Source: Magnetovibrio sp. PR-2 (lineage in GTDB: Bacteria > Pseudomonadota > Alphaproteobacteria > Rhodospirillales > Magnetovibrionaceae). From it: a stretch of 59,945 nt of DNA. A program made the position numbers and the translations under genes. The notes under the pieces were generated by a model. It ran no database searches. It saw only the letters and a program-made list of their open reading frames with translations, and had not been told where the DNA came from. Of the stretch, positions 38,467 through 59,889 are shown piece after piece. The first letter of the stretch is position 1. Every line of letters begins with the position of its first letter. Where the stretch lies: positions 1-59,945 of the forward strand of contig NZ_JBAHUR010000019.1 of NCBI RefSeq assembly GCF_036689815.1, given 5' to 3'.

Positions 38467-38525
38467 ATGGCGGAGAGAGAGGGATTCGAACCCTCGGTGC
38501 CCGTGAAGGCACAACGGTTTTCGAG
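38467..38525 (-). repeat. tRNA-Ser 3' part, left attachment site of the mobilizable element
   Basis: On the minus strand these 59 bases read from the anticodon loop (CTCGAAA, anticodon CGA) through variable arm and T-arm (GGTTCGAATCC) to the acceptor end CTCTCCGCCA. The 5' half of the tRNA is absent. The same 59 bases recur at 49494-49552 with one difference (G/A in the variable arm). They are the direct repeats created by site-specific integration. Confidence 0.9.
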
Positions 38526-45782: not shown

Positions 45783-46937
45783 TTAGCGGACTTGTGACAA
45801 ATGTACTGCGCTGTTGAAGAGATTTACGCTCACACTTCCGTCCTTTGGGTCCACCCGAAGTCGAACATGTCCGTTTTTGGGATAGAGATCATAACGGTGA
45901 ATGTTGTGCCGGACTAGAATCTTATCGTTTCTACCCAACCTTTTTTTCTTTTGCGTGGAGAAACTGGAAGTACTGTATGCATCGTTGGTATGTCCAAGTA
46001 TGCGCTTAACATCGGATGACGTTGGTAGCTCAGTCGAGCCGCGTTTGAATGGAGAGAGAAAGGCTACTGGCGAGTTCATGTTTTTCCACAACTGTGGAGC
46101 ATCGGCGTTTGTGGAGCCGTGATGGGCCACTTTGAAGGCACCAGCTGGTTGCGCAGCTTGATAGGACAAAGATGTATTCAGGACGGATGTCCAGCCCTTT
46201 CCTGGTGTTTCTTCTAAGTCAGCTCCAAATATTGCCGAAAACGGCTGGACGCTTGAGTTAGTGTTACTTGCATTTTGTTCCAGAAGTATCGCGGCAGAAA
46301 CATCGTTAGGACGCAATTGCGTTGCGCCTCTTCGTTCAGCTTTAAAGTCAGGTGTCTGGGTCGATACATATGCGAGAAATTGGCCGACCTTAGCGTCGGA
46401 CGGAGCCAGGGCGCTTACGCGCATATCTGGTGTGTTGATGAAAAGGGTATCTTGTTTAACAAAGGTGGGGGTTTTCGGCGCGCGGGCAGTACTGAGCTTT
46501 AAAACATTATATAGCTCTCGAGTTGTTTGACTGAGAGCAGCTGGGTCATTGTTGGCGAAATAGGTGATGTATTTCACCATCTCTTTAGTTGCAAGAATGC
46601 TAGGGCAGACAAGCTTTGCTGATTTGCATTCATCGAATAGTTTTGCAATTCCACCAACATGATCCCCGTCTGGATGAGTAATCACATTATGCGTTACTTG
46701 CTCCGCAACATTCACGCCAATAGCTTCTAGGTATGCAAGAGCAGAAGGGGTTCGTTTGTCTTCTTCAAGACAGCTATCCACTGTAAACCATAGGCCGTCG
46801 CCATAGTGGACAACAATGCACTCCCCATAGCCGGGGCCAAATAGAGATATTTCCAACTCTTGAGGAGATGGCGAAGAGTACTCAGCTTTTGAAGTTGTGG
46901 GCTGAATTGCTCTTTTAGCTACCAAACTTATCCTCAC
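45783..46937 (-). CDS. Metallo-beta-lactamase-fold hydrolase, cargo operon gene 3
   Basis: A 384-residue protein. SLFGPGYGECIVVHYGDGLWF opens a ComEC/competence-type MBL fold; the metal motif is ITHPDGDHVGG (HxDxDH), later FGADLEE and VAHHGSTNAD supply the remaining ligands. Such domains hydrolyse nucleic acids or nucleotides. The start is a GTG at 46937 that overlaps the upstream gene by 23 bases. With the two preceding genes it forms a three-gene operon inside the mobile element, a position typical of defence cargo. The substrate cannot be deduced from the sequence. Confidence 0.75.
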   Translation of the reverse strand: MRISLVAKRAIQPTTSKAEYSSPSPQELEISLFGPGYGECIVVHYGDGLWFTVDSCLEEDKRTPSALAYLEAIGVNVAEQVTHNVITHPDGDHVGGIAKLFDECKSAKLVCPSILATKEMVKYITYFANNDPAALSQTTRELYNVLKLSTARAPKTPTFVKQDTLFINTPDMRVSALAPSDAKVGQFLAYVSTQTPDFKAERRGATQLRPNDVSAAILLEQNASNTNSSVQPFSAIFGADLEETPGKGWTSVLNTSLSYQAAQPAGAFKVAHHGSTNADAPQLWKNMNSPVAFLSPFKRGSTELPTSSDVKRILGHTNDAYSTSSFSTQKKKRLGRNDKILVRHNIHRYDLYPKNGHVRLRVDPKDGSVSVNLFNSAVHLSQVR

Positions 46938-47526
46938 GAGTTTCTGTTAATGAAGCTTGGGCTGGAGCAGCCATATCTTCTGCAGAAGCTGGGCTCTCAA
47001 TACTTCCAAGACTGCGCCAGAGTTCATCAGCTACTGCGTCAGCGCGTTCTAAATCTCGTTTGCCCCAACGAGGCATGCGCCGGAAGACTAATCGTGTGGT
47101 TTTTTGGCGCCCTTGCCCAGGGGGATGGATGACACCAACTGTGAGGTAAAAAATGGAACCTTCTTTAAGGAGGTCTAGATCTCCATGGTCCACCTCATCA
47201 ATTCCAATTTCGACACCATCTTCAGCTACAGATAAATCGCTATTTGTTTTTCGAATTGATGCGTAAAACTTCGTTTGCTCAACCGCAGTAATGACTCCTT
47301 CCCAGTTGGAAAGAACATCAAATCGAACAGCGTGATGATTTGAGGCCCGGGCTACTTTTTTTCGGGTACGAATATGAGGGCCATTTCCTTCAGCTGCCGT
47401 GTCTTTGTAATCCGCATTTCGAGGAGCCGAAGGGCCAACTTCAGGGGTCCTGGAAAAGACAGGCATAGCTTCAGCGCTGATGGTGTCGTCTTCGAAATAG
47501 ACTGGTGCGGTTGATGCCTCAATCAT
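46915..47526 (-). CDS. Unknown protein, cargo operon gene 2
   Basis: A 203-residue protein, not recognised. Residues 1-70 are probably disordered, residues about 70-165 look beta-rich (FDVLSNWEGVITAVEQTKFYAS, GSIFYLTVGVIHPPG, TTRLVFRRMPRW) and the tail is acidic. Its start overlaps the upstream TIGR04255-like gene by four bases and its end overlaps the MBL gene by 23, so the three are made together. The beta part might be a small binding domain that links sensor and nuclease, which is inference from context. Confidence 0.6.
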   Translation of the reverse strand: MIEASTAPVYFEDDTISAEAMPVFSRTPEVGPSAPRNADYKDTAAEGNGPHIRTRKKVARASNHHAVRFDVLSNWEGVITAVEQTKFYASIRKTNSDLSVAEDGVEIGIDEVDHGDLDLLKEGSIFYLTVGVIHPPGQGRQKTTRLVFRRMPRWGKRDLERADAVADELWRSLGSIESPASAEDMAAPAQASLTETREDKFGS

Positions 47527-48221
47527 TGTTTTACGCTTTCAATGGTTTCCATGAGGCCATCTGCGATAAATTCAGCCTTTTCCATCACAGCTGACCAGTG
47601 TGTATGTAATACGTCTATAGCTTCAGTGCAACCTGTTGTATTTTCTGGGTCACTGATGGAAAAGTGATTGTTGATACCAAGCTCAACTGCAGAGTGGTCG
47701 TCTTTGACCGCCCGAACCTCAGCATCAATGTATCCTTCAATGCCATCTGGACGGGGTTGTTGTCTCATGGCCATGCGAATCATGCCACCATGCTTTTGAG
47801 CATCTTCTCCCTTGATCTCATCACCCCATTTCCCCCAATGTTCTTTAGGGGCGAGTAATGAACCAAATGCATCCCTGGTAGCTTCGTTGCCACAGGAGAA
47901 TAAAATAGTACGGTTAAGACCAAGCTGCCAGATTTGCGAATGAACGAGGTGCTCTCCAAAAATGGAAACAGCCATATCTTTAATCAAGTCTTTATATATA
48001 GCTTCGCAACCTACCATAAAGCGGTTAGCCTGGATTTCGAATGTAATATACCCAGCTGTAAAGCGGGTAATATCGGCATGAATAATCTCTATATCCGCAT
48101 CTTCGGCTTGTTCTTTTGAAATCAAGCTATTGAGCTCAAGCCATGCTGGATGGAAAATGCGGGGATTAAATGCCCCGCGTAAAACAATACTTGCTTCATC
48201 CCGTAGCGGTTCGATGCGCAT
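47523..48221 (-). CDS. TIGR04255-like protein, cargo operon gene 1
   Basis: A 232-residue protein. RIFHPAWLELNSLISKEQAED, then IEIIHADITRFTAGYITFEI and ANRFMVGCE have the rhythm I associate with TIGR04255-family proteins, which occur next to enzymes in defence or mobile loci and have an alternating-strand fold. The family call is from memory and uncertain. It is the promoter-proximal gene of the three-gene unit that ends with the MBL hydrolase, its start lying about 130 bases downstream of the integrase stop. Confidence 0.5.
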   Translation of the reverse strand: MRIEPLRDEASIVLRGAFNPRIFHPAWLELNSLISKEQAEDADIEIIHADITRFTAGYITFEIQANRFMVGCEAIYKDLIKDMAVSIFGEHLVHSQIWQLGLNRTILFSCGNEATRDAFGSLLAPKEHWGKWGDEIKGEDAQKHGGMIRMAMRQQPRPDGIEGYIDAEVRAVKDDHSAVELGINNHFSISDPENTTGCTEAIDVLHTHWSAVMEKAEFIADGLMETIESVKQ

Positions 48222-49493: not shown

Positions 49494-49552
49494 ATGGCGG
49501 AGAGAGAGGGATTCGAACCCTCGGTACCCGTGAAGGCACAACGGTTTTCGAG
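49494..49552 (-). repeat. tRNA-Ser 3' part, right attachment site
   Basis: The second copy of the 59-bp repeat, identical to 38467-38525 except one base in the variable arm. Again only the 3' part of the tRNA, starting at the anticodon loop, is present; the sequence to its right does not rebuild a 5' half. A complete tRNA-Ser must therefore lie beyond the right edge, and the DNA between is a further island in the same site. Confidence 0.9.
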
Positions 49553-49723: not shown

Positions 49724-49932
49724 TTATGTCGCCTTTGACGCATGGGTAAGTTGTTGCTGTCTTCGGTTGGTCGTGATGTCACGCTTTGTGATAAACTCTT
49801 CCCAGCCTTTAATGATTGCATAGATCGCGAGGTCTTTGGCTTTCAATCCCATTCAGAAAATGCCTGATCTAGGTTTTTGTCTAGATATAAACTGGTATTT
49901 ATGACGTCACCATGAACAATCTTTTGCCTCAT
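49724..49932 (-). pseudogene. Broken copy 1 of a ribbon-helix-helix gene
   Basis: From ATG 49932 the frame reads MRQKIVHGDVINTSLYLDKN and then stops; after a small deletion with phase change, another frame reads GLKAKDLAIYAIIKGWEEF and continues to a TAA at 49724-49726. Together they match the intact gene at 59655-59822 over its length. A GTGACGT-like motif precedes it, as in the intact copy. The region 49553-49723 holds nothing visible, and 49933-50219 holds only a short plus-strand frame without a start. Confidence 0.78.
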
Positions 49933-50219
49933 CAATTTGCGACGTTACATCGATCATTGGTAGTAGTTCTTCAAGGCCAAAAGCAAAGCATGGATATTTC
50001 AGGGGGACATGGTGTCGTGACGTGCATCTGCAAAAGGTTGAGGTAAAGAGTTTCTCGGTCAGCATTATTGACCACGCACGACACTATGGGGAAGGTGGAC
50101 ATATCCGTTACGCAGCTCTGCGGATTGACCTAGCTACCGCTTAAGTAATGCATGACCTTCCCCGACAACCCGGCTGATGCGAAAATACAATCGTTTATGC
50201 ACTATAAGCGGCAGAACAT

Positions 50220-50903
50220 TTATTCAGAATCAGGAATTGATTTACTCAAGATGATGACGAAGAAAAAGAAAGTATTTATCAGCTCTGACGCAAACAACAC
50301 ACGCGCTTCTTGAACAAGGGGCTGAAAACCTCCGTAGGTCAATGTGAATGCGGTTGCAACACTAAGGTACAACGCATTCGTAGTGTTTACACAACCGTCT
50401 GGCCAAGCAATTAAATCGCTATATTGATACTCGTAAAGGTATGCATAACAGACAAGGTAAAAGGCGAGAGAAAGCATAAATGCTAAAAAGCGGCGTTGTT
50501 GATGAGGCAGATCCTTTTTTACTGGCAGGATGCCGCTCCAGGCATGGTAGTAAAAATAACTGAATAAATTGGACGCAATAAGGTACCAAATGACGTAGCC
50601 CATAATAGTGGAAGACACCTGATAGTAGATTGCGAATAAAACTAGTCCCCATTTCAGGATCATATAAACATCAATGGCGATACTTTTCGCTTTCCGATCG
50701 CCATCTTTTGACGCATCTTCACCGTTACAAAACAAGTAAAAATACCCGGAAAACACCTTCAACCATTCAATTAAATTTAATAATCTCAATAATGTGATTA
50801 TTGATTTGGCGGTAGGGTAAATAAAACCATATTTATATTTACTATTTTTTTCATAATCATCTTTTGTGTCTAAAAAATAGGCTCTAACATATCTTGCAAA
50901 CAT
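50220..50903 (-). CDS. Ion-channel-like membrane protein
   Basis: A 227-residue protein with helices near 78-96, 100-120, 138-158 and 200-220. Between the last two lies NALYLSVATAFTLTYGGFQP, which has the form of a two-helix potassium-channel pore (pore helix, then a T-x-T/V-x-YG filter; here TLTYGG at about 187-192). The ATG at 50903 has AGGA 9 bases upstream; a longer frame begins at 51023. It is transcribed divergently from the FAD/unknown/PIN operon, with about 205 bases between. A pore-forming effector that depolarises the infected cell is a reasonable guess, given many defence systems ending in a membrane effector. Confidence 0.68.
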   Translation of the reverse strand: MFARYVRAYFLDTKDDYEKNSKYKYGFIYPTAKSIITLLRLLNLIEWLKVFSGYFYLFCNGEDASKDGDRKAKSIAIDVYMILKWGLVLFAIYYQVSSTIMGYVIWYLIASNLFSYFYYHAWSGILPVKKDLPHQQRRFLAFMLSLAFYLVCYAYLYEYQYSDLIAWPDGCVNTTNALYLSVATAFTLTYGGFQPLVQEARVLFASELINTFFFFVIILSKSIPDSE

Positions 50904-51108
50904 TATGAGAAATTCCTGAGAATCTATGATTTCTACAGTGGTCCAGAAATGTATATGCGATAGATCTAAAACCAGCAGCTTCTGAGTTGAAACACAAACA
51001 GGGAGAAACCCGGACCAGATCATCCTATTGACGAACGCGCTATGCTACCTGTACGCTAATTCCCTAATCAATCACAATTACCTGTCACACTCGCACTTTA
51101 TTTTGATC
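50904..51108. promoter_or_regulatory. Divergent promoter region of the channel/FAD/PIN module
   Basis: AT-rich DNA between the two chosen starts. Both genes have longer open frames reaching into it, but the ribosome-binding site at the channel start and the domain start of the FAD protein favour the shorter forms. No operator is evident. Confidence 0.4.
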
Positions 51109-52740
51109 ATGTCTGTAAATTTGACGCCACAACGCAATGAACGCCTAGATAGATATCGCGTAGATGGGCAACTCTATACCATTGGAACTTCAGCAGGGCG
51201 GGTTGGCTTTCATGCGCAACAGTGGCGTGCTCTTGATCTGGTGAGCAATTTGATTGTCGACCTTCAGTCTGTTGAAAATCCTGAAGTTGGGGTTCTCGGC
51301 GCAGGTGTGTCGGGAACGGTCTGCTTTACAGCCTTAAAGGCCTTGGGCGTGAAAAACGTAAAGCTCATCGAAGCACACGATGATATTTTGCAACAGCAGG
51401 CGACCGCAGAACATCGTCATGCCCATCCGAGTTACAATGATTGGCCGATTCAACTCGACCAGGGAAGAGAATACCTGTCGACGACCAATCTACCGTTCAT
51501 GAACTGGTATGCCGATAATGTGAAAGAAATTACGGAGCAGATAAAGGAAGACGAAAATTTTGCGTCTTTTTGTAAAGAAAACTCTGATGATGTGTTGACG
51601 AGCCATACAATTACTAACATCCGTCTCGATAAGATGGATGACCGAATTTATGTCACCGCCGATCATCCGCTGAAGAGAAACAAACGGTTTAGGTTTGATT
51701 TCACGATTATCGCTCTCGGGTTTGGTCGGGAAAAACACCTCCACCTGTCAAGTTCAGGCTCTTACTGGTGGAGCGATAACGTGAAAAACTATCGCAGCGA
51801 TCACTTGTACGCAGACTTGCCGCGATATGTGACGGGGAAAGGGGATGGCGGCCTCATTGATTATGTTCGTCTCGCCCTAAAAGAGGGAAATGTCCTCGAT
51901 AAAAATGAAACAAACCCGGCCCTTGAAGTTATCGGATTGCTGAGAAAAGAAGAGTATCAAAAATTAGATAACGCCTGGCCTGAGAAAAACCAGCAGGCAA
52001 CGGACGCCGAAAAGCATCTTGCCGAATGCTTTGCCCCTCAAGAAGGGGAGCCTAATCCCCAAAATTTTTATAATTTCATGCACCGCCTTTGCACGGAAAA
52101 CAGCCATTACCCTGGCGCTGAAGAAATACAAAAAATGATTGAAAGAAATTTTAAGCGTGCGGAAGAGCTCGACAGAATTCACTTGGTCGGAGATGGGGAT
52201 ACGCCATTCAATGAAAAAGTCTCTCCGGTCAACGCGCTTTTGTATTCATTGTTTTACACATCAAATGAAAACGAACGGTACAAGCAAGGGGGCATTGAAG
52301 ACAATCGTCTGCAAATCAATGGGGAGCCGGTTTCTGAAAAACATATCCATTTCACCAGAACGGGCTCACAAGACCTCATTGAGGGCTTGCTGGTCGGTGA
52401 AGATCTGAAAGAAAAGTATACGAAATTGCTGGCCGAAAGAGGGGTGAATAATGACCTGATCTTTGAGTGGGAGCGGATTTTCGTAAACATTCCAGTTAAA
52501 TTCGATAGCAATAAACGCCTGGATCTAGCTGAAAAGTTTTTGCGGCGATACTTCAATAATGCCGACATATATCTCGAACCGGATGAAACTTTTGTTGTTT
52601 GTCTGCCTGAAGATGACTCAAATGATAATGTCTATAAAAAACTTGGCGGCTTTGACCGGCAGATTTTTGGTGTGGGCGTGAAATATGAGTTTCGGCACGC
52701 ATGCCCAGTATGTGGCGTTGATTTTGAGGCTGCACCATGA
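51109..52740 (+). CDS. FAD/NAD(P)-binding Rossmann protein
   Basis: A 543-residue protein. Residues 58-75 (PEVGVLGAGVSGTVCFTAL) are a dinucleotide-binding fold with GxGxxG at 64-69, then VKLIEAHDDIL with the acidic end of strand two, and ATAEHRHAHPSYNDWP, which recalls the FAD_NAD_binding_9-type FAD proteins. FTIIALGFGREKHLHL is the usual second ATG-like motif. The C-terminus has a CPVC pair. It probably holds FAD and could be a redox or metabolite sensor rather than a true oxidase. Its stop overlaps the next gene by four bases (52737-52740). The ATG at 51109 is preferred over a TTG at 51028. Confidence 0.7.
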   Translation: MSVNLTPQRNERLDRYRVDGQLYTIGTSAGRVGFHAQQWRALDLVSNLIVDLQSVENPEVGVLGAGVSGTVCFTALKALGVKNVKLIEAHDDILQQQATAEHRHAHPSYNDWPIQLDQGREYLSTTNLPFMNWYADNVKEITEQIKEDENFASFCKENSDDVLTSHTITNIRLDKMDDRIYVTADHPLKRNKRFRFDFTIIALGFGREKHLHLSSSGSYWWSDNVKNYRSDHLYADLPRYVTGKGDGGLIDYVRLALKEGNVLDKNETNPALEVIGLLRKEEYQKLDNAWPEKNQQATDAEKHLAECFAPQEGEPNPQNFYNFMHRLCTENSHYPGAEEIQKMIERNFKRAEELDRIHLVGDGDTPFNEKVSPVNALLYSLFYTSNENERYKQGGIEDNRLQINGEPVSEKHIHFTRTGSQDLIEGLLVGEDLKEKYTKLLAERGVNNDLIFEWERIFVNIPVKFDSNKRLDLAEKFLRRYFNNADIYLEPDETFVVCLPEDDSNDNVYKKLGGFDRQIFGVGVKYEFRHACPVCGVDFEAAP

Positions 52741-53765
52741 CGACAAATGCTGCCCCCCCCATACAAATAGGTCAAAAACTGTATTCTGCGCCGAATGAAA
52801 CTGGCGGCAGATATTATTCTTTCATGAGCGGTTTCCTTGAAAACGCGCAGGGCTACGAATGCGAAGATGATCTTCGGCTGTACGGTTTGGTTCCTACCTC
52901 CTTCTTGGATAACTTGGGCACCGGGAAAATTTACATCAAAAAGGAAGATGGTGATTTTGCTGAGGTCGGTACGTCGCACCTGCCGTCGAATATGAACGGC
53001 GATGCCTTGGGGCAAGCTCTCCTTGGGTGTTTCTCGATTAAAGACGATGTGGTGATCGATCCCAATTTTGATCCAGAGGCCATTGTCACGGAGATCGTTG
53101 GAGGGCTTCGGCTCCTCTCTGCGCATGATGAAGATAGAAACAGGGCAACTGAGCTTTATATTGCGCATCCAAACCGCACATTAAGGTGTGACGCAATACA
53201 TCTGCCTCAAGGTGCCCCCTCTACGATTGAGGGCTGCATATGTGTACGCTCGATGGGAGAGGCAAATCAGGACTTTCCTTCACAAAAAGAGTTTGGTGCG
53301 ATTTATGCAACCCAAGACGGTTATCTTGGACCGACGATTGCTATCGACGAGGGGCGTTCTGAAACTTTTATTCTGCCTTACAAAGCCATCAGCGCCTTGC
53401 TTAAAACGACGTCTTTCAAGTTCGCCACTCCCAAAGTTCTGTTGGCCCAAAACGAGCGAAATAAACCGGAGCTTGTTTTGCTAAATCCGATAGAATTGGC
53501 TGCGCTCTTCAAAGCTGATCATGAGGCCAAACTGCTCGGGGCACTCGAACATTTAGACAATTGGAGTGGGATGATAGGTGAGTTAAGTGTCCCTGATTTC
53601 AATGAGTATACGGAACCTCTTCTCGGACTTGACGATATTCTTCATTTTTCCAATGATAATGTCTTCATGATGAGGCGCATTGGTGATTCACACGAGGTTC
53701 CAATTTCTGATTACATTCAGAAATTTAGATCTAAGAATCGTGAAGGGTTAGGGAATGTGTCATGA
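52737..53765 (+). CDS. Unknown protein, middle gene of the FAD/PIN operon
   Basis: A 342-residue soluble protein with no motif that I can name. It is acidic, has alternating beta-type stretches (SFLDNLGTGKIYIKKEDGDF, ETFILPYKAISALLKTTSF, VLLAQNERNKPELVLLNP) and no membrane segment. Both ends overlap neighbours by four bases (ATGA at 52737-52740 and 53762-53765), so its amount is tied to the FAD protein and to the 888-residue protein. It may be a scaffold between them; that is inference from coupling alone. Confidence 0.65.
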   Translation: MTTNAAPPIQIGQKLYSAPNETGGRYYSFMSGFLENAQGYECEDDLRLYGLVPTSFLDNLGTGKIYIKKEDGDFAEVGTSHLPSNMNGDALGQALLGCFSIKDDVVIDPNFDPEAIVTEIVGGLRLLSAHDEDRNRATELYIAHPNRTLRCDAIHLPQGAPSTIEGCICVRSMGEANQDFPSQKEFGAIYATQDGYLGPTIAIDEGRSETFILPYKAISALLKTTSFKFATPKVLLAQNERNKPELVLLNPIELAALFKADHEAKLLGALEHLDNWSGMIGELSVPDFNEYTEPLLGLDDILHFSNDNVFMMRRIGDSHEVPISDYIQKFRSKNREGLGNVS

Positions 53766-56428
53766 GAAAGCGGCATGGCGACCAACGTAAACTCCTTTCC
53801 GCGATGGCGTTTCTTCATTGCGAGATCATGGGGCGACAGGAGAGTGTGTCATTTAAAAGCAAAGATGATCACGATATTACTTTTATATATGACACCGATA
53901 TCATCGCGACTTATCTTGAGCCGTGGAAGACAGGCCCCTTGGATAATGAGGGGGGGTGGGGCTACGGCCAACTCTTGCCACGTATGCATAGGGACGAAGA
54001 CAAACTCCAGTATCGCGCGTCGGAAGATAGCATTGCTTGGTTTACAGCCTCTTTGTTGGCGCGCAAAGCCCTGAAGGCTCCTGTCGAGTATGAGGATGGT
54101 AGTTCATCTGACGAGAATGCCGAAGATCAATCTTTTAGCCGAGCATTGAGTTGCATATATCAATTCCCACACCATTACTCTGAAACAAATAGCCATTTAA
54201 AATATTTAGATAGAGAAACTAAATCTATCGCCAATCGTGACCCTGAAACGAACGAGGAAAGACGGTTTAAAGTTCTAACGGAAGTCCTTGTTGTTTCTGC
54301 CATCGAAAGAGGACAATCGGATCAGCAGATCGTTGATCTTATTTCTAAACGATTTGAATCTCGATTTATGAGATTTGGGAGCAAACAGTCGAAGCTTCTA
54401 AGAGAAAAAGAAAATTATACAAAGTTTTTAAATCGTTATGGCGACATTCATAAGTTTGATTTTGACGCATTTAACGACCTTTTGAACGACGCGAAAGAAA
54501 AAGTTGATTTAAATTTCGAATATTTTGAAGTTGAAAAATATGCTCGGCGTGCTCTTGAGCTGTTTTGGCAAGATCGTCTAGGGTCAAAATCTGGTGATAG
54601 CTTAAAGGCAGATGCTCGCGCTTTAACCGACATGGCCATTTACAATAAACGCCTCTTGATGCAGGGCGTTAAGCGGCGGCTCGTGTTTGTGACTGGGGAT
54701 AGAACTCTAGTACGAGCAACATACAATACGAAACCTGAGTACTTAGAGCCAATCATCAGGCGTGTGCTAATGGCTGATGTTTTTGCACACAAATTAAACG
54801 TCAATGATAATCATGAAGCAGCCCAGTTATTAGAAAAGCTGTACGAATTTTTTGGAATTATCACAGATGAATCGGATGAGTATTCATCGTGGTTTAGCCG
54901 ATTTTCATTTCATTATATTCGTCACTTCTGGGCAATTGCGCCTGATGCACTTCTGGAAAATGCAAAGACGATCCAGCTCAAAGATCTATTCCATGGATTA
55001 TTCGCAACTGAAGGCGAACGTTTGTCCCTCTCGCGACAGAATATGGAGCGGCTTGTCCTGAACGGCACCTTCGGGGCACGTGGGGCAGAACTTAATCACG
55101 AAGGCTTCATTGACCTTTCTGACTGGTACCAATTTACAAAAGAACGAATTGAAACGGCGCGAGCTGAGGAATTCGGCCTTAACGACATTGATGTCAGAGC
55201 GATCCGAAACCAATTGAAGGCGGAAGGTGGTGAGAGCTTTTACACTCGTCTATCTGATGTATTCGAAGAATATCTCAGTCGTCAAAGAGACAGAACGATG
55301 TTGTCCTTTTCCAACCGCGGAGCGACAGAGCTAGTGCGTTCAGCAGAGAACGCATCTCGGCCACCGGATCTCTTTTTCCAAACGCTAACGAACACAAACA
55401 AAATATTCACTAACCTTTCTATCCGTGATTATTACAAAAATACGGAACATAGTTTCATGGATGACTTCCTGGCCATTAAGGACGACTGCTGCGATAAAAA
55501 TGTCCGGGGTGAACTGGATGATCGGCAGAAATCGCACTTGAAGTTTCTGGTCTTAGCAGCCGTGTTTGCGGCAGCAGAAAAATGGGAAGCCGCATACGGC
55601 CATGCTAGGCGTGCGATCAATATCATCGAACGATCAGATGAGCCAATTCCCGTTCGCTCAGAGATTAAAAGCAACATGTCCGGTCGCGAAGCATATTACA
55701 TCGCTTCGGTTTGTCGCCGTATGTTGGCCATCACCGAACAAGATTTAATAAAATATGCAAAACAGCATTTGGATAGTGCTCGAAAAGCGCTTGTCAAAGA
55801 TATGAAAGCCAACGAAGACCTTATACAAGAAAAGCATAATTTAAGGTTTAACAACGAAACTCTCTCGCAGTACATCGCCACGTATTACTTCGTGAGAAGT
55901 CAAGTCAATGGTGACGTCGAGAGCGTATATAAACCGCGCAAGGGGCAAGTTTACGACTGTGTGTCTGAGTATGCGCCTGCTTTCATAACATTCTTACAAG
56001 AAATGCTCGCCGAAGATCGGGATGAGACCTTTAAATTGACCTGCGATATTGTCAGTTGCAACATCTTACAATCCAAAGTCATTGCTCATTTCTGGCAAGA
56101 CAATATCTTTATACCAGGTGATATGGACCACTTCAGAGAGTTATACGAGCTAGCACTTCAGTGGCTAAATAAGAGAAAAGAAGAAGAGAACTATATAGAA
56201 ACGTTTATTATTGGGTGTTACAGAAGGGTTTGTAATGGCCTGCAACAAATAGAATACAGCACGTCAGAAACGACCGTTGATGTTTTCGATACACCAGAAG
56301 ATGTAGAAGCGTTCTTCGATATTGATTGGGATAAGGGTACATATCAGAACAAACAACTTTCGCGCTACGAGTTCTGGCGCCTTGAGGCACTGAAAGATTT
56401 TGCACTTGTTAATTTATTTAACGGCTAA
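53762..56428 (+). CDS. 888-residue protein with PIN-like nuclease part and long helical region
   Basis: The N-terminal 330 residues have the pieces of a PIN ribonuclease fold, split by an insertion: FIYDTDIIATYL with D44/D46, a middle acidic ARALTDMAIYN (D290), and LVFVTGDRTLVRA with D313, the typical last strand (vTgD). Residues from about 330 to 888 are almost entirely helical, with TPR-like pairs, and probably bind a partner or RNA. The gene is the last of a three-gene coupled operon. PIN domains cut RNA, so this is the likely effector or one of two effectors together with the channel protein. It ends 26 bases before a ribbon-helix-helix relic. Confidence 0.68.
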   Translation: MRKRHGDQRKLLSAMAFLHCEIMGRQESVSFKSKDDHDITFIYDTDIIATYLEPWKTGPLDNEGGWGYGQLLPRMHRDEDKLQYRASEDSIAWFTASLLARKALKAPVEYEDGSSSDENAEDQSFSRALSCIYQFPHHYSETNSHLKYLDRETKSIANRDPETNEERRFKVLTEVLVVSAIERGQSDQQIVDLISKRFESRFMRFGSKQSKLLREKENYTKFLNRYGDIHKFDFDAFNDLLNDAKEKVDLNFEYFEVEKYARRALELFWQDRLGSKSGDSLKADARALTDMAIYNKRLLMQGVKRRLVFVTGDRTLVRATYNTKPEYLEPIIRRVLMADVFAHKLNVNDNHEAAQLLEKLYEFFGIITDESDEYSSWFSRFSFHYIRHFWAIAPDALLENAKTIQLKDLFHGLFATEGERLSLSRQNMERLVLNGTFGARGAELNHEGFIDLSDWYQFTKERIETARAEEFGLNDIDVRAIRNQLKAEGGESFYTRLSDVFEEYLSRQRDRTMLSFSNRGATELVRSAENASRPPDLFFQTLTNTNKIFTNLSIRDYYKNTEHSFMDDFLAIKDDCCDKNVRGELDDRQKSHLKFLVLAAVFAAAEKWEAAYGHARRAINIIERSDEPIPVRSEIKSNMSGREAYYIASVCRRMLAITEQDLIKYAKQHLDSARKALVKDMKANEDLIQEKHNLRFNNETLSQYIATYYFVRSQVNGDVESVYKPRKGQVYDCVSEYAPAFITFLQEMLAEDRDETFKLTCDIVSCNILQSKVIAHFWQDNIFIPGDMDHFRELYELALQWLNKRKEEENYIETFIIGCYRRVCNGLQQIEYSTSETTVDVFDTPEDVEAFFDIDWDKGTYQNKQLSRYEFWRLEALKDFALVNLFNG

Positions 56429-56454: not shown

Positions 56455-56564
56455 TTGGCCTTCAATCCAGTTGAGTTGGCAAGTTGTGAGAGAGCCTGAT
56501 GAAGATTTTTATCTAGATATAATCATATTTTTATGACGTCACTATCAGCAATTTTGTGTCTTAT
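56455..56564 (-). pseudogene. Broken copy 2 of the ribbon-helix-helix gene
   Basis: The minus strand reads IRHKIADSDVIKI, a stop, then LYLDKNLHQALSQLANSTG and LKAN, matching residues 1-36 of the intact protein at 59655-59822, with the start codon changed to ATA and the C-terminal half absent. The upstream GTGACGT-like motif is also kept (56570-56576). Confidence 0.75.
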
Positions 56565-57100
56565 CGATTTGTGACGTTACGACTTTGGTTCCACTGCTGT
56601 GAAGCTATACCTTGCTTGGCAACCCTACGGGAACTGACTTCCTTTCCAATGATGAGGAAACACTGACCTGCAAAAATTGGGAAAATGATTGCACAAAGAA
56701 AACAGCTGCTGGATATGTCCTTGGGAGCATCATTCCCTTTGGCGGAATGATGGCCGGTAGCGATACGGAAATCAGAAGCCTAACTATTTTATCTCTTCGA
56801 CCGGTGTCGTGAGTAAAATATCGCAAGGCGACATGATCATGAAAACCAGCGTGTTCCAGCTTTGATATTTATCTTTCAAGGATAAAGACTACAGCCCCTT
56901 TGGCAACAGAGGGAGCTGTGTGGTTACTATTACTCCCCCTTGCCAAGGCCCGTATTCCCGCACTTTTCCTTAACACATAGCACCGGAAAACTTCGGTTTT
57001 TTGCCCATTTGAGGCCTTTTTACAGGGTTTCGTGCCAGGCTGTTACGAAACGAATGCTCAGGACCGGTGTGGTAATTCAGTAGATTTCTTGACCGGGACT
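56565..57100. other. Intergenic stretch before the retron
   Basis: No well-supported gene. A plus-strand frame of 66 codons (56612-56812, TTG start) contains AAGYVLGSIIPFGGMMAG but lacks a good ribosome-binding site. Two hairpins occur: a CCTTTGGCAA/TTGCCAAGG pair at about 56896-56952, and GTTTCGT 57027-57033 with ACGAAAC 57045-57051. The retron promoter must lie in the right part of this region. Confidence 0.4.
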
Positions 57101-57104
57101 CCCT

Positions 57105-57292
57105 GTGCGCGTAACTTGATTATACCTTTACGCGGATTGGAACATCCACATGGAACATCCGGTGTCGGGCGCTTCGCCAGACGGGTTATATTGACGACTT
57201 TTATCGGCGCGATTGAGGCCTTTTCATCACCTCCGCTCGCTCCGGTAATGAAAAGGCCTCATCGCGCCTTATCAAGGGTAAAGGAAATTATC
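57105..57292 (+). ncRNA. Retron msr-msd non-coding RNA
   Basis: The msd part is a long hairpin: arm 57206-57231 and arm 57244-57268 pair over about 24 bp with one bulged T and one mismatch, loop TCCGCTCGCTCC. The msr part before it has a stem at about 57163-57185 with GGCG CTT CGCC at its tip and two GGAACATCC direct repeats. CCTTTAC (57125-57131) and GTAAAGG (57278-57284) are candidates for the a1/a2 closing pair. The RNA is expected to prime its own reverse transcription. Its 3' end contains the ribosome-binding site of the effector gene. The exact 5' end is uncertain. Confidence 0.8.
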
Positions 57293-57293
57293 G

Positions 57294-58262
57294 GTGAATC
57301 CTTATATTGAAAGGTTCACGAAAAGCATTGATGTATTTAAATCGCGGGTTGCGAATACGTCTGATCACATATTTTTCTGTGGTGGGCCGAAAAACCCGGA
57401 GTTAGATCATGGTGCAAAACCACATTCGGCACGCGATTATATTTTGCGCAAAACGTTGGTACACAAGACCAGCCTTTATGAACGCTTCTATTTAGAAGAA
57501 AACATGCGTGAATGGCTTTTTGGGGGGCATTTTCAAGATTTGGCGAGTTTTGAGAGACACGTTTCGCAAATCTGTTCACTTGTGTTTTTGATTTCAGAGA
57601 GTCCCGGCTCGTATGCTGAATTGGGAGCATTTGCCCACGATGAGGATATCAGCGAAAGGCTCTTTGTGGTTATAAACTCGTCTATCGACAATGACGAGTC
57701 GTACATTTCACTTGGACCAATTCTGAAGTTGAGGGAAATTGATGAGGATAAAGTCCTAACCTTTCGTTGGGGGGCAGTTTTCGAAACCGGTAAACCGCCT
57801 CGTATCAACGAAGGGCATCTCGATGATGTCTGGGAAAGCATTATCAACAAGCTTCTTGAGTACGAAGAAAAAATCAAAACAGAAACGAAGCTTGATAAAA
57901 ACAACAGCGGACATGTGTCCCTGATGTTGTTGGACGTCTTGAAAGTATATGGTGCTGCAACGGTTCGTGAATTGGTCGAGGCCATGCAGAATGTGATCCC
58001 TGGTGTTACCGAGAGCGACGTAAAACGACACTTGTTTGTTCTTGATAAATTGGATTTGATTACAATACGAACTCACGGCAGAAAATTTTACGTTTCGAAT
58101 TCCGATCTGCGCCACATCAACATTGATTATGTTGAAGGTACTGACACAGATATTTCTGATCGCACCCGGTTGGGTGTTCTAGTTCGCGAGTGGTTCGAGA
58201 AAGAAGATCCTGGCCGCTATAAAGTAATCAAACGGCATGCAGCGGAGGTTCCCGATGAGTAA
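57294..58262 (+). CDS. Retron effector: nucleoside-deoxyribosyltransferase-like protein with C-terminal winged helix
   Basis: A 322-residue protein of the Ec86/St85-type retron effector family. The N-terminal half has the nucleoside-deoxyribosyltransferase fold: DHIFFCGGPKNPE near 24-36, a long charged helix, and SESPGSYAELGAF (101-113) with the catalytic-type E109. Residues about 205-270 form a winged helix (HVSLMLLDVLKVYGAATVRE, SDVKRHLFVLDKLDLI). In such retrons the effector is held inactive by RT and msDNA and, when released, degrades or modifies nucleotides (NAD or DNA precursors). The start is a GTG at 57294, preceded by AAAGGA in the ncRNA 3' end. The stop overlaps the RT start by eight bases. 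Confidence 0.85.
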   Translation: MNPYIERFTKSIDVFKSRVANTSDHIFFCGGPKNPELDHGAKPHSARDYILRKTLVHKTSLYERFYLEENMREWLFGGHFQDLASFERHVSQICSLVFLISESPGSYAELGAFAHDEDISERLFVVINSSIDNDESYISLGPILKLREIDEDKVLTFRWGAVFETGKPPRINEGHLDDVWESIINKLLEYEEKIKTETKLDKNNSGHVSLMLLDVLKVYGAATVRELVEAMQNVIPGVTESDVKRHLFVLDKLDLITIRTHGRKFYVSNSDLRHINIDYVEGTDTDISDRTRLGVLVREWFEKEDPGRYKVIKRHAAEVPDE

Positions 58263-59217
58263 CCTCCTTAAAAGAATTGCTACTGATTTTGGAGTTACCA
58301 TTCGTGAGGCTAGAATGCTGGTTAATTCAGCACCAAAGAGATATAAAGTTTTTGAAATCGATAAGCGCAATGGCACTAAGCGTTTAGTTGCCCAACCAGC
58401 AAAAGAAATAAAAGCCTTGCAAAAGTGGTTGGTTGAAAATGTACTTTCAGAACTTCCTATTCATGATTGCGCAACGGCTTATCGTTCTGGGCGTGGCATC
58501 AAATATAATGCCTCCAAGCACGTAAATAACGCATACCTTTTGAAGATGGATTTTAGAAAGTATTTTCCATCAATCAAAAAACTTGATTTAGCCAAACATC
58601 TTGCATCCTGTATGACGGACAGGTTTGATGCTGATGATATAGACTTCATATGTAATATCGCTTTATGGAGGCCAAAGAATATCAACGGAAGGCTTAAGGC
58701 TGGTAGAGGGCTTGAATTATGCATTGGCGGACCCAGTTCACCGTTCATTGCTAACTCTATTGCATATGCCTTTGATTTACTTGTTTCTGAAGAGTGCAAG
58801 CGTATGGGGGTTACCTATACCCGTTATGCTGATGACCTTACATTCTCAACAAATGAAAAGGGTGTGCTTAGAGAAATAGAGTCATTCGTCACCAAAGCCT
58901 GCAAGCAAGTGGAGTACCCATATTTAAGAATTAATACTGAGAAGACGGTTCATGCTTCTAAAAAACATAAACGATTTGTAACTGGGGTTACCTTATCTAG
59001 CCAAGGGAAGCTTTCTTTGGGGCGAGTGAGGAAAAGAAATATTCGAGCAGCAATCCATAAATTTACTCAGGGACAATTGGATTCAAAATCTACTCTTAGG
59101 CTCAGAGGGCTATTAGCCTTTGCTTTAGATGTAGAGCCTTCATTTATAAAGTCTATGAAGAATAAATATGGCGATCATAAAATTGAATCCATTCTAAAAT
59201 GGGAAAAGCCAGTTTAA
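58255..59217 (+). CDS. Retron reverse transcriptase
   Basis: A 320-residue RT of retron size. Motifs in order: YKVFEIDKRNGTKRLVAQP (fingers), NNAYLLKMDFRKYFPSI (motif A with D99, preceded by the retron-type NN), GGPSSPFIANSIA (motif B), YTRYADDLTFS (motif C, YADD at 191-194), and FVTGVTL with the VTG element (242-244) that retron RTs use to recognise their msr. The ATG at 58255 has AGCGGAGG six bases upstream and overlaps the effector stop by eight bases. With the ncRNA and effector this is a complete type II retron, so all parts for function appear present. Confidence 0.93.
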   Translation: MSNLLKRIATDFGVTIREARMLVNSAPKRYKVFEIDKRNGTKRLVAQPAKEIKALQKWLVENVLSELPIHDCATAYRSGRGIKYNASKHVNNAYLLKMDFRKYFPSIKKLDLAKHLASCMTDRFDADDIDFICNIALWRPKNINGRLKAGRGLELCIGGPSSPFIANSIAYAFDLLVSEECKRMGVTYTRYADDLTFSTNEKGVLREIESFVTKACKQVEYPYLRINTEKTVHASKKHKRFVTGVTLSSQGKLSLGRVRKRNIRAAIHKFTQGQLDSKSTLRLRGLLAFALDVEPSFIKSMKNKYGDHKIESILKWEKPV

Positions 59218-59654: not shown

Positions 59655-59822
59655 TCAGACATCTTGATCAAATTCCTCGAATAGTTTGATGGTGGCGTAG
59701 ATCATGAGGTCGTTGGCTTTCATACCTGTTGTGGTAGCCAAATTAGAAAGAGCCAGGTGGAGCTTTTTATCTAGGTACAAGCTGGTTTTTATGACGTCAC
59801 CGTCTGCTATCTTTTGCCGCAT
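59655..59822 (-). CDS. Ribbon-helix-helix DNA-binding protein, intact copy
   Basis: A 55-residue protein. A short beta strand region (DGDVIKTSLYLDKKLHLAL) followed by two helices (NLATTTGMKANDLMIYATI) is a CopG/Arc-type ribbon-helix-helix, usual for plasmid copy control, partition or antitoxins. The ATG at 59822 is chosen, not the in-frame ATG at 59864, because both broken copies have an in-frame stop just upstream of the same position and because GTGACGT sites occupy the extra part. It likely represses itself. No toxin partner is visible in the window. Confidence 0.7.
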   Translation of the reverse strand: MRQKIADGDVIKTSLYLDKKLHLALSNLATTTGMKANDLMIYATIKLFEEFDQDV

Positions 59823-59828
59823 CGTTTT

Positions 59829-59889
59829 GTGACGTTGCGGTTTCGGGCTGGGTTGTGACGTCATGGTTTTGTCTGCGGTGGTGTGACGT
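59829..59889. promoter_or_regulatory. GTGACGT repeats upstream of the ribbon-helix-helix gene
   Basis: GTGACGT occurs at 59829-59835, 59855-59861 and 59883-59889, spaced 26 and 28 bases. A related TGACGTC also lies inside the gene at about 59792-59798. Repeats in phase in front of an RHH gene are typical operators for its own product. Confidence 0.55.

Follow-up and report, generated by a model that had tools for sequence, protein, structure and literature searches.

A candidate modular conflict system of an FAD/NAD(P) effector-type protein, a probable pseudoprotease and a likely PIN-domain protein in Magnetovibrio

Results

Conservation and distribution of the A-B-C operon

The element analyzed here is a three-gene operon, A-B-C, located in a stretch of 59,945 nucleotides from Magnetovibrio sp. 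PR-2 (contig NZ_JBAHUR010000019.1, positions 1 to 59,945; this whole stretch is called the window below). With about even confidence we read A-B-C as a mobile, modular conflict system in which A, with a domain for flavin adenine dinucleotide (FAD) and nicotinamide adenine dinucleotide, phosphorylated or not (NAD(P)), and probably C would be the effectors, B would be an adaptor and an adjacent membrane protein would be an exchangeable part. An anti-phage purpose is what the domains and the genomic context most readily suggest. A preliminary description of the same DNA had reported three ATGA-coupled genes beside a divergent channel gene, and the open reading frames (ORFs) are indeed found where it had placed them (Table 1). 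Its impression that the module is undescribed was borne out in so far as PADLOC-DB 2.0.0 gave no match for B, C or the channel of the window, and no description of A-B-C was found in the literature searched, the coverage of which was partial, so that an earlier mention is possible.

The same order and strand of A, B and C is present at 12 distinct loci (the window, two plasmids and nine genomes), with neighbouring genes that overlap or nearly touch. In the window the contacts are ATGA overlaps at 52737-52740 (A/B) and 53762-53765 (B/C). The other loci are L002 (Ruegeria plasmid), L004 (Asticcacaulis plasmid), L036, L043, L044, L049, L050, L051, L052, L054 and L065, where L052 (Parvularculaceae) and L037 are one contig and were counted once. 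Ten of these 11 loci are alphaproteobacterial (L036 by shared class), and L049 is a Lysobacterales metagenome-assembled genome; eight (L043, L044, L049-L052, L054 and L065) came from a set of 31 loci. When a C profile was built from five A-B-C loci it recognised seven further C proteins with E values from 1e-16 to 2e-47, and a B profile recognised B at five of those seven, B of L043 and L054 being assigned by position only. In addition, A is accompanied by an elongated B (510-575 amino acids, aa) at L045, L047 and L048, and by a B-like protein of 281 aa at the three near-identical loci L055, L056 and L061 (E 4e-4 to 6e-4). A replacement of C by descent through the long tail of the elongated B was considered and discarded, as the score of 15.9 did not exceed the best of the shuffles (16.1). 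The small extra genes behind C in L002 and L004 have no match to each other.

A-B-C is rare. In a phylum-wide draw of 398 genomes it was found in at least three, the own genome included. A hundred genomes of this draw matched, and we followed the own genome and the five with E<1e-29, while the other 94 had E values from 3.5e-8 upward and mostly short matches to the nucleotide-binding site. The five followed genomes comprise two with A-B-C (G695 and G815), two with Lamassu (G706 and G718) and one with a third context (G769, locus L038). With a C profile, two of 289 genomes of the class proved to carry C, the own and G247. Searches with C itself returned the window only among 385 class genomes, the Ruegeria plasmid only among plasmids, and nothing among phages and viral contigs. 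A search of 100 genomes of the own order with A returned the own genome only, a search of phages with A gave no match, and neither did a search of plasmids with B.

The FAD/NAD(P) domain of gene A

Residues 48-285 of A, and only these, are matched by the PADLOC LmuA model PDLC03858 (E=1.1e-36), and Pfam gives sub-threshold matches to FAD/NAD(P) Rossmann families (Pyr_redox_2 E=0.0018, DAO E=0.0025). The glycines of two nucleotide-binding sites (GAGVSG and GKGDGGLID) are largely invariant across relatives. The preliminary description had called A a Rossmann protein with a segment resembling FAD_NAD_binding_9; the GxGxxG motif and the segment HRHAHPSYNDWP are both present, while FAD_NAD_binding_9 is not among the five Pfam families matched up to E=1. 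The LmuA effector domains listed in PMC10586767 include a "double-Rossmann dehydrogenase".

The same type of domain is found in several immune-type settings. It is part of the Lamassu operons L006, L039 and L040 (the latter two identified by BLAST to L006 proteins), it is fused to NB-ARC and TPR in L057, whose protein also matches the LmuA effector domain (E=1.5e-98), and to NB-ARC in L062, and it occurs with TPR and a weak NB-ARC match in L073. Further fusions are to LRR-Roc-COR in L067, to TIR-Mrr in L046 and to NACHT-HEAT in L069, with L068 just under the NACHT cut-off. Because the domain recurs in Lamassu, NB-ARC/TPR, NACHT-HEAT, Roc-COR and TIR-Mrr settings, it behaves, as far as sequences can tell, as an exchangeable effector. 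LmuA proteins of this type carry the label FMO. The redox or dinucleotide sensor that the preliminary description had seen in the FAD protein is not supported, since the domain sits where effectors sit, i.e. in LmuA and in fusions of the NB-ARC, NACHT and Roc-COR type.

In a tree of 42 domains a 98/99 branch sets 19 rows apart from the Lamassu and STAND rows. These 19 rows are the 12 A-B-C loci, the three with a long B, the three with a B-like protein and the TIR-Mrr protein; within them the A-B-C rows are not one clade (five changes), and A of the window is a long branch.

As a separate observation, an FAD-domain protein of 717-728 aa is encoded at L038:8722-11219, L041:9932-12493 and L042:5902-8425, and the FAD domains of these three form one starred clade in the tree. 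A small protein follows it, which in L041 and L042 looks like an ASCH domain.

Gene B resembles a degenerate trypsin-like protease

The motifs GDAG...VG...AxP and LTAAQ/LTSNR in B recall GNSGG and TxxHV of trypsin-like proteases, a likeness that the preliminary description had missed. For a profile comparison, 20 protease loci gave 18 usable segments, and 17 HtrA-type proteases were left after one with a stop in the extension had been dropped. With hhalign the B family without the window row scored 32.2 against these 17, whereas 60 column shuffles averaged 12.6 and reached at most 16.6; with the window row included the unshuffled score was 30.1. By default the alignment covers 61-65 columns around the Ser motif. 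A looser setting extends it in register to the His motif, including the later VG...P stretch, so that B shares the register of both catalytic motifs with the HtrA/trypsin-fold proteases (PF13365) in this looser alignment. B differs from these proteases in the catalytic residues: the aligned His site has His in none of the 15 B members (in L047 a His lies close to it, and in several rows, that of the window included, the alignment of this loop is uncertain), and the aligned Ser site has Ser in two (L065 and L043), Ala in seven and another residue or a gap in six.

Foldseek with a model of B (predicted local distance difference test, pLDDT, of 51) listed 50 rows, of which 42 are trypsin-fold by title, with a best E of 9.1e-3 and none below 1e-3. 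Sequence searches of Pfam (five members) and the PDB with B gave nothing meaningful. A protein encoded a few genes before A at L043:7304-8272 (+) is likewise recognised by the profile of 15 B members (E=4e-4), and this protein passes Pfam Trypsin_2 (E=1.3e-7). B is thus probably a pseudoprotease of trypsin-like fold, as judged from motifs, profiles and a model, and likely acts as an adaptor.

Gene C and its likely PIN-like domain

All 12 C members keep D44, H138, E141 and D284, and at position 313 nine have D and three have N. Of the acidic residues that the preliminary description had read as split PIN motifs, D44 and D313 therefore stand, while D290 is D in only 2 of 12 and position 46 varies between D, N and S, as fits the second position of the PIN strand. 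C has the D-x-N/D strand, E, D and T-x-D acidic set of PIN ribonucleases (PF01850) in order, and it differs from them in that the residues are distributed over some 270 aa containing a long insert, that a helical tail of about 500 aa follows and that no Pfam PIN match was obtained.

Two parts of C were aligned to 17 PIN domains, the usable segments from 20 loci. Residues 1-60 with the D44 strand scored 22.8 against at most 12.4 in 60 shuffles (18 columns), and residues 130-345 with the D313 strand scored 18.8 against at most 14.8 in 60 shuffles (14 columns). The two strands align to the two ends of the PIN domains; the E141 and D284 stretches gave no hhalign alignment to PIN by themselves. Foldseek with a model of C returned helical-repeat rows, several of them TPR, all with E above 0.06, and no PIN entry was among the 50 rows listed for this low-confidence model. 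The structure prediction had been proposed as a check in the preliminary description; with a pLDDT of 51 it neither confirms nor excludes a PIN fold. Sequence searches of Pfam (five C members) and the PDB with C gave nothing meaningful. Because conserved residues and short profile alignments agree and the model is poor, we grade the presence of a PIN-like domain in C as likely. The protein is 767-962 aa long where complete, except for the short-ended L049.

Membrane proteins beside the operon

For the channel protein of the window Pfam gave nothing at E values up to 1, and NCBIfam gave a weak potassium-channel match (E=0.048). Its sole relative found, encoded at L051:14987-15643, is 43% identical over 198 aa (tblastn, E=1.25e-35; 42% in alignment), passes Pfam Ion_trans_2 (23.0 bits, cut-off 22.5) and keeps the pore motif TLTYG that the preliminary description had pointed out. 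The gene abuts C of L051 convergently. Among the 398 genomes the full-length channel occurs in the own genome only, with five weak partial matches around the pore in others, and no full-length relative was found in plasmids or viral contigs (the viral search being pattern-based). The link between channel and operon that the preliminary description had proposed is taken to be real because such a rare channel family recurs right beside C at L051.

At three other loci a different membrane protein adjoins the operon. A protein with seven transmembrane segments (7-TM) lies downstream of the operon at L044 and upstream of it, divergently, at L052, and this family is present in 1 of the 398 genomes, that of L052 (G815); at L004 a 3-TM protein lies behind C. 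That rare membrane families recur, and in different positions, is not easily put down to coincidence. One of the observations that the preliminary description had named as speaking against itself has two halves, coupled genes mostly without the channel and housekeeping surroundings. The former is what was found, since tblastn detected no channel copy at the other 10 A-B-C loci (L049 has hardly any flanking DNA, and elsewhere three flanks stay below 3 kb), three of which carry the other adjacent membrane proteins. Of the latter there is no sign, A-B-C being in no evident housekeeping operon as judged from chosen neighbours.

Locus layout and genomic neighbourhood

Table 1 Features of the A-B-C locus in the window
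Feature	Position	Strand	Remark
Channel-like membrane protein gene	ORF 50220-51023, likely 50220..50903	-	Pore motif TLTYG; divergent from A
Probable divergent promoter region, channel/A	50904..51108	.	Predicted from sequence
Gene A	ORF 51028-52740, likely 51109..52740	+	Stand-alone FAD/NAD(P) double-Rossmann ("FMO") effector-type protein
Gene B	52737..53765	+	Degenerate trypsin-like protein (probable pseudoprotease)
Gene C	53762..56428	+	Likely split PIN-like domain (residues about 36-325), then helical TPR-like region
99-nucleotide repeat, left copy	49848..49946	.	Borders module; repeat search
99-nucleotide repeat, right copy	56480..56578	.	Between module and retron; repeat search, 74% identity to first copy
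99-nucleotide repeat, third copy	59738-59836	.	Beyond retron; repeat search, 76% identity to first copy
Retron type II-A	56980-59217		PADLOC NDT E=1.8e-63, RT E=2e-119; St85-type by NCBIfam

Both A and the channel likely use internal starts (ATG 51109 and 50903, respectively), because relatives align only within those limits, in addition to our reading of the sequence; if so, about 205 bp separate the two divergent genes. The G+C content of the module genes is 0.37-0.47, below the 0.52 of the first 38 kb of the window. The "broken regulator copies" of the preliminary description are present as DNA, in the form of the 99-nucleotide repeat. Since this repeat flanks the module and recurs past the retron, module and retron look like neighbouring cassettes.

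The retron that had been noticed on the island was assigned to type II-A by PADLOC. A hairpin-like stretch before its NDT gene, read by eye, is perhaps its RNA, and there is no Rfam match there. With tblastn at E<=0.01, NDT and RT of the retron matched none of the 11 other A-B-C loci (L049 being without flanks). Neighbouring defence genes, which the preliminary description had proposed to look for, lie within several genes of at least five of the 11 A-B-C loci with flanks. Besides the retron of the window they include genes for a DNA cytosine methyltransferase and for very short patch repair at L002, a methylase and an MvaI/BcnI endonuclease at L051 with one gene between them and A, type I restriction at L054 and PDC-S73 (E=1.8e-150) at L065. 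A dnaE-type polymerase and a gene of the impB type are encoded close to L043, and integrase genes lie near the modules of L052 and the window.

Other parts of the window may be mentioned separately. At 38479 and 49506 two near-identical copies of a sequence, presumably resembling a tRNA 3' end (ARAGORN found no whole tRNA), bound a stretch with a relaxase, a TrbL-like protein and an integrase, and the A-B-C island lies just outside the right end of this stretch; an Rfam RF04351 match at 49498-49549 falls under its gathering score. Beside an integrase gene, 45783-48221 (-) carries three genes with overlapping ends. One encodes a metallo-hydrolase-fold protein (PADLOC LmuA PDLC03854 E=1.8e-10, RTasMBL E=1.7e-7) and the other two encode unknown proteins; the set may be another operon of defence type.

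Discussion

In the model that we favour, A would be an oxidoreductase that binds FAD and NAD(P) and, upon activation, uses up NAD(P)H or oxidises a component of the cell. C would probably sense or dock through its helical part and cut RNA through its PIN site. B, as a catalytically dead trypsin-fold protein, would most likely be a peptide-binding adaptor that holds A, and C as well. The adjacent membrane protein, here the channel, would be an interchangeable fourth part, acting either as a second pore-type effector or as a membrane anchor. A tentative and rather doubtful extension is that A-B-C represents a hitherto undescribed immune system that works with no nucleotide-hydrolysing switch: the dead trypsin-fold protein would relay the signal between a PIN-helical sensor-nuclease and the free-standing FAD/NAD(P) effector, and membrane pores would serve as an exchangeable fourth effector. 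The STAND/NLR-like FMO proteins (L057, L062, L073, L068 and L069) have the same effector-type domain at the N-terminus, and their TPR or HEAT repeats are the likely sensor; they differ from A-B-C, where no switch hydrolysing nucleoside triphosphates was detected and the helical PIN-like protein is a separate gene. No NB-ARC, NACHT or AAA match up to E=1 was obtained for A, B or C of the window or for B and C of five members, nor did Pfam give any ATPase match up to E=1 for the four proteins of the window or for the same B and C members.

Several points weigh against the conflict-system model. The best hhalign probability behind the fold call is 33% for B and, over 14-18 columns, 27% for C, and the structure models of both proteins, for which the alignments had 12 and 9 rows, are poor (pLDDT 51). 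A membrane protein is adjacent at only 5 of the 12 loci (L049 is not judgeable), a proportion that, on hydropathy alone, could be due to chance. The 7-TM proteins of L044 and L052 show just a weak likeness (22% in alignment; E=8e-7 over 95 aa), and G815 has a second weak 7-TM copy away from any A-B-C. C has a homologue in G247 (L126:5322-9814, -) that follows two other genes, for proteins of 345 and 365 aa without a Pfam match; neither A nor B was seen beside it, on a contig that ends 389 bases further on. The scans for defence genes covered chosen neighbours, without a control set. Finally, the biochemical activities, the order of activation, the phage trigger and the detailed folds of B and C are all what we infer. 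Two ideas were discarded: no further module is marked by the second 7-TM copy of G815, and the homologue in G247 rules out that C is exclusive to A-B.

Four other explanations were weighed. The preliminary description had a sensor role, redox or dinucleotide, for A, with an RNase (C) and/or an ion pore under its control. The glycine motifs of A, the PIN-type residues of C and the link between channel and operon all agree with it, and we nevertheless regard it as unlikely, as the domain of A is an exchangeable effector of other systems and the channel copy was not found at the other 10 A-B-C loci. That A-B-C is a divergent Lamassu (ABC-three-component) system in which B and C have replaced the ATPase appears very unlikely. 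The two share the FAD/NAD(P) effector domain, LmuA-like in A, and a short gene cluster, the Lamassu operon L006 having likewise three genes, and an 818-aa protein at L037:11207-13663 (+) is similar to the L006 ATPase along a stretch of 80 aa (E=4e-4). This ATPase-like gene lies about 4.6 kb behind C, past an integrase gene and outside the operon. The SMC-like LmuB and the middle component of Lamassu were not found in A-B-C, where B and C take those two places: B and C of five members each have no SMC or ABC match, a BLAST comparison of the L006 middle component with B of the window, L002 and L004 gave nothing at E<=1, and tblastn (E<=0.01) placed neither this component nor the L006 ATPase at any of the 11 other A-B-C loci. 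A is moreover shorter than the LmuA proteins of L006, L039 and L040 (570 aa against 789-843 aa), and the 98/99 branch parts the A-B-C rows from the Lamassu rows.

PIN domains are common toxins, and two of the A-B-C loci are on plasmids and integrase genes lie near L052 and the window, so that one may also think of a toxin-antitoxin-like or plasmid-maintenance cassette with C as the toxin and A and B neutralising it. Three co-conserved genes, the effector-type domain of A and the size of complete C proteins, far above that of known PIN toxins, make such a cassette quite unlikely. The least probable alternative in our view is a metabolic or stress-response operon, made up of a flavoenzyme and regulators, that has come to lie on islands by chance. 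It would account for the oxidoreductase motifs in A and for the polymerase and impB-type neighbours at L043, but not for the rarity and patchiness of A-B-C, for the nearby restriction and retron genes or for the immune-type fusions among the relatives of the domain.

If the conflict-system model is true, A-B-C would be a type of defence system with two putative effectors and no evident hydrolase of nucleoside triphosphates, and B would be a pseudoprotease serving as a bacterial signalling adaptor. The biochemistry of the Lamassu-type FAD effector would then become accessible in a stand-alone protein. One FAD effector domain appears to have spread over Lamassu, NLR-like, Roc-COR and TIR-type proteins.

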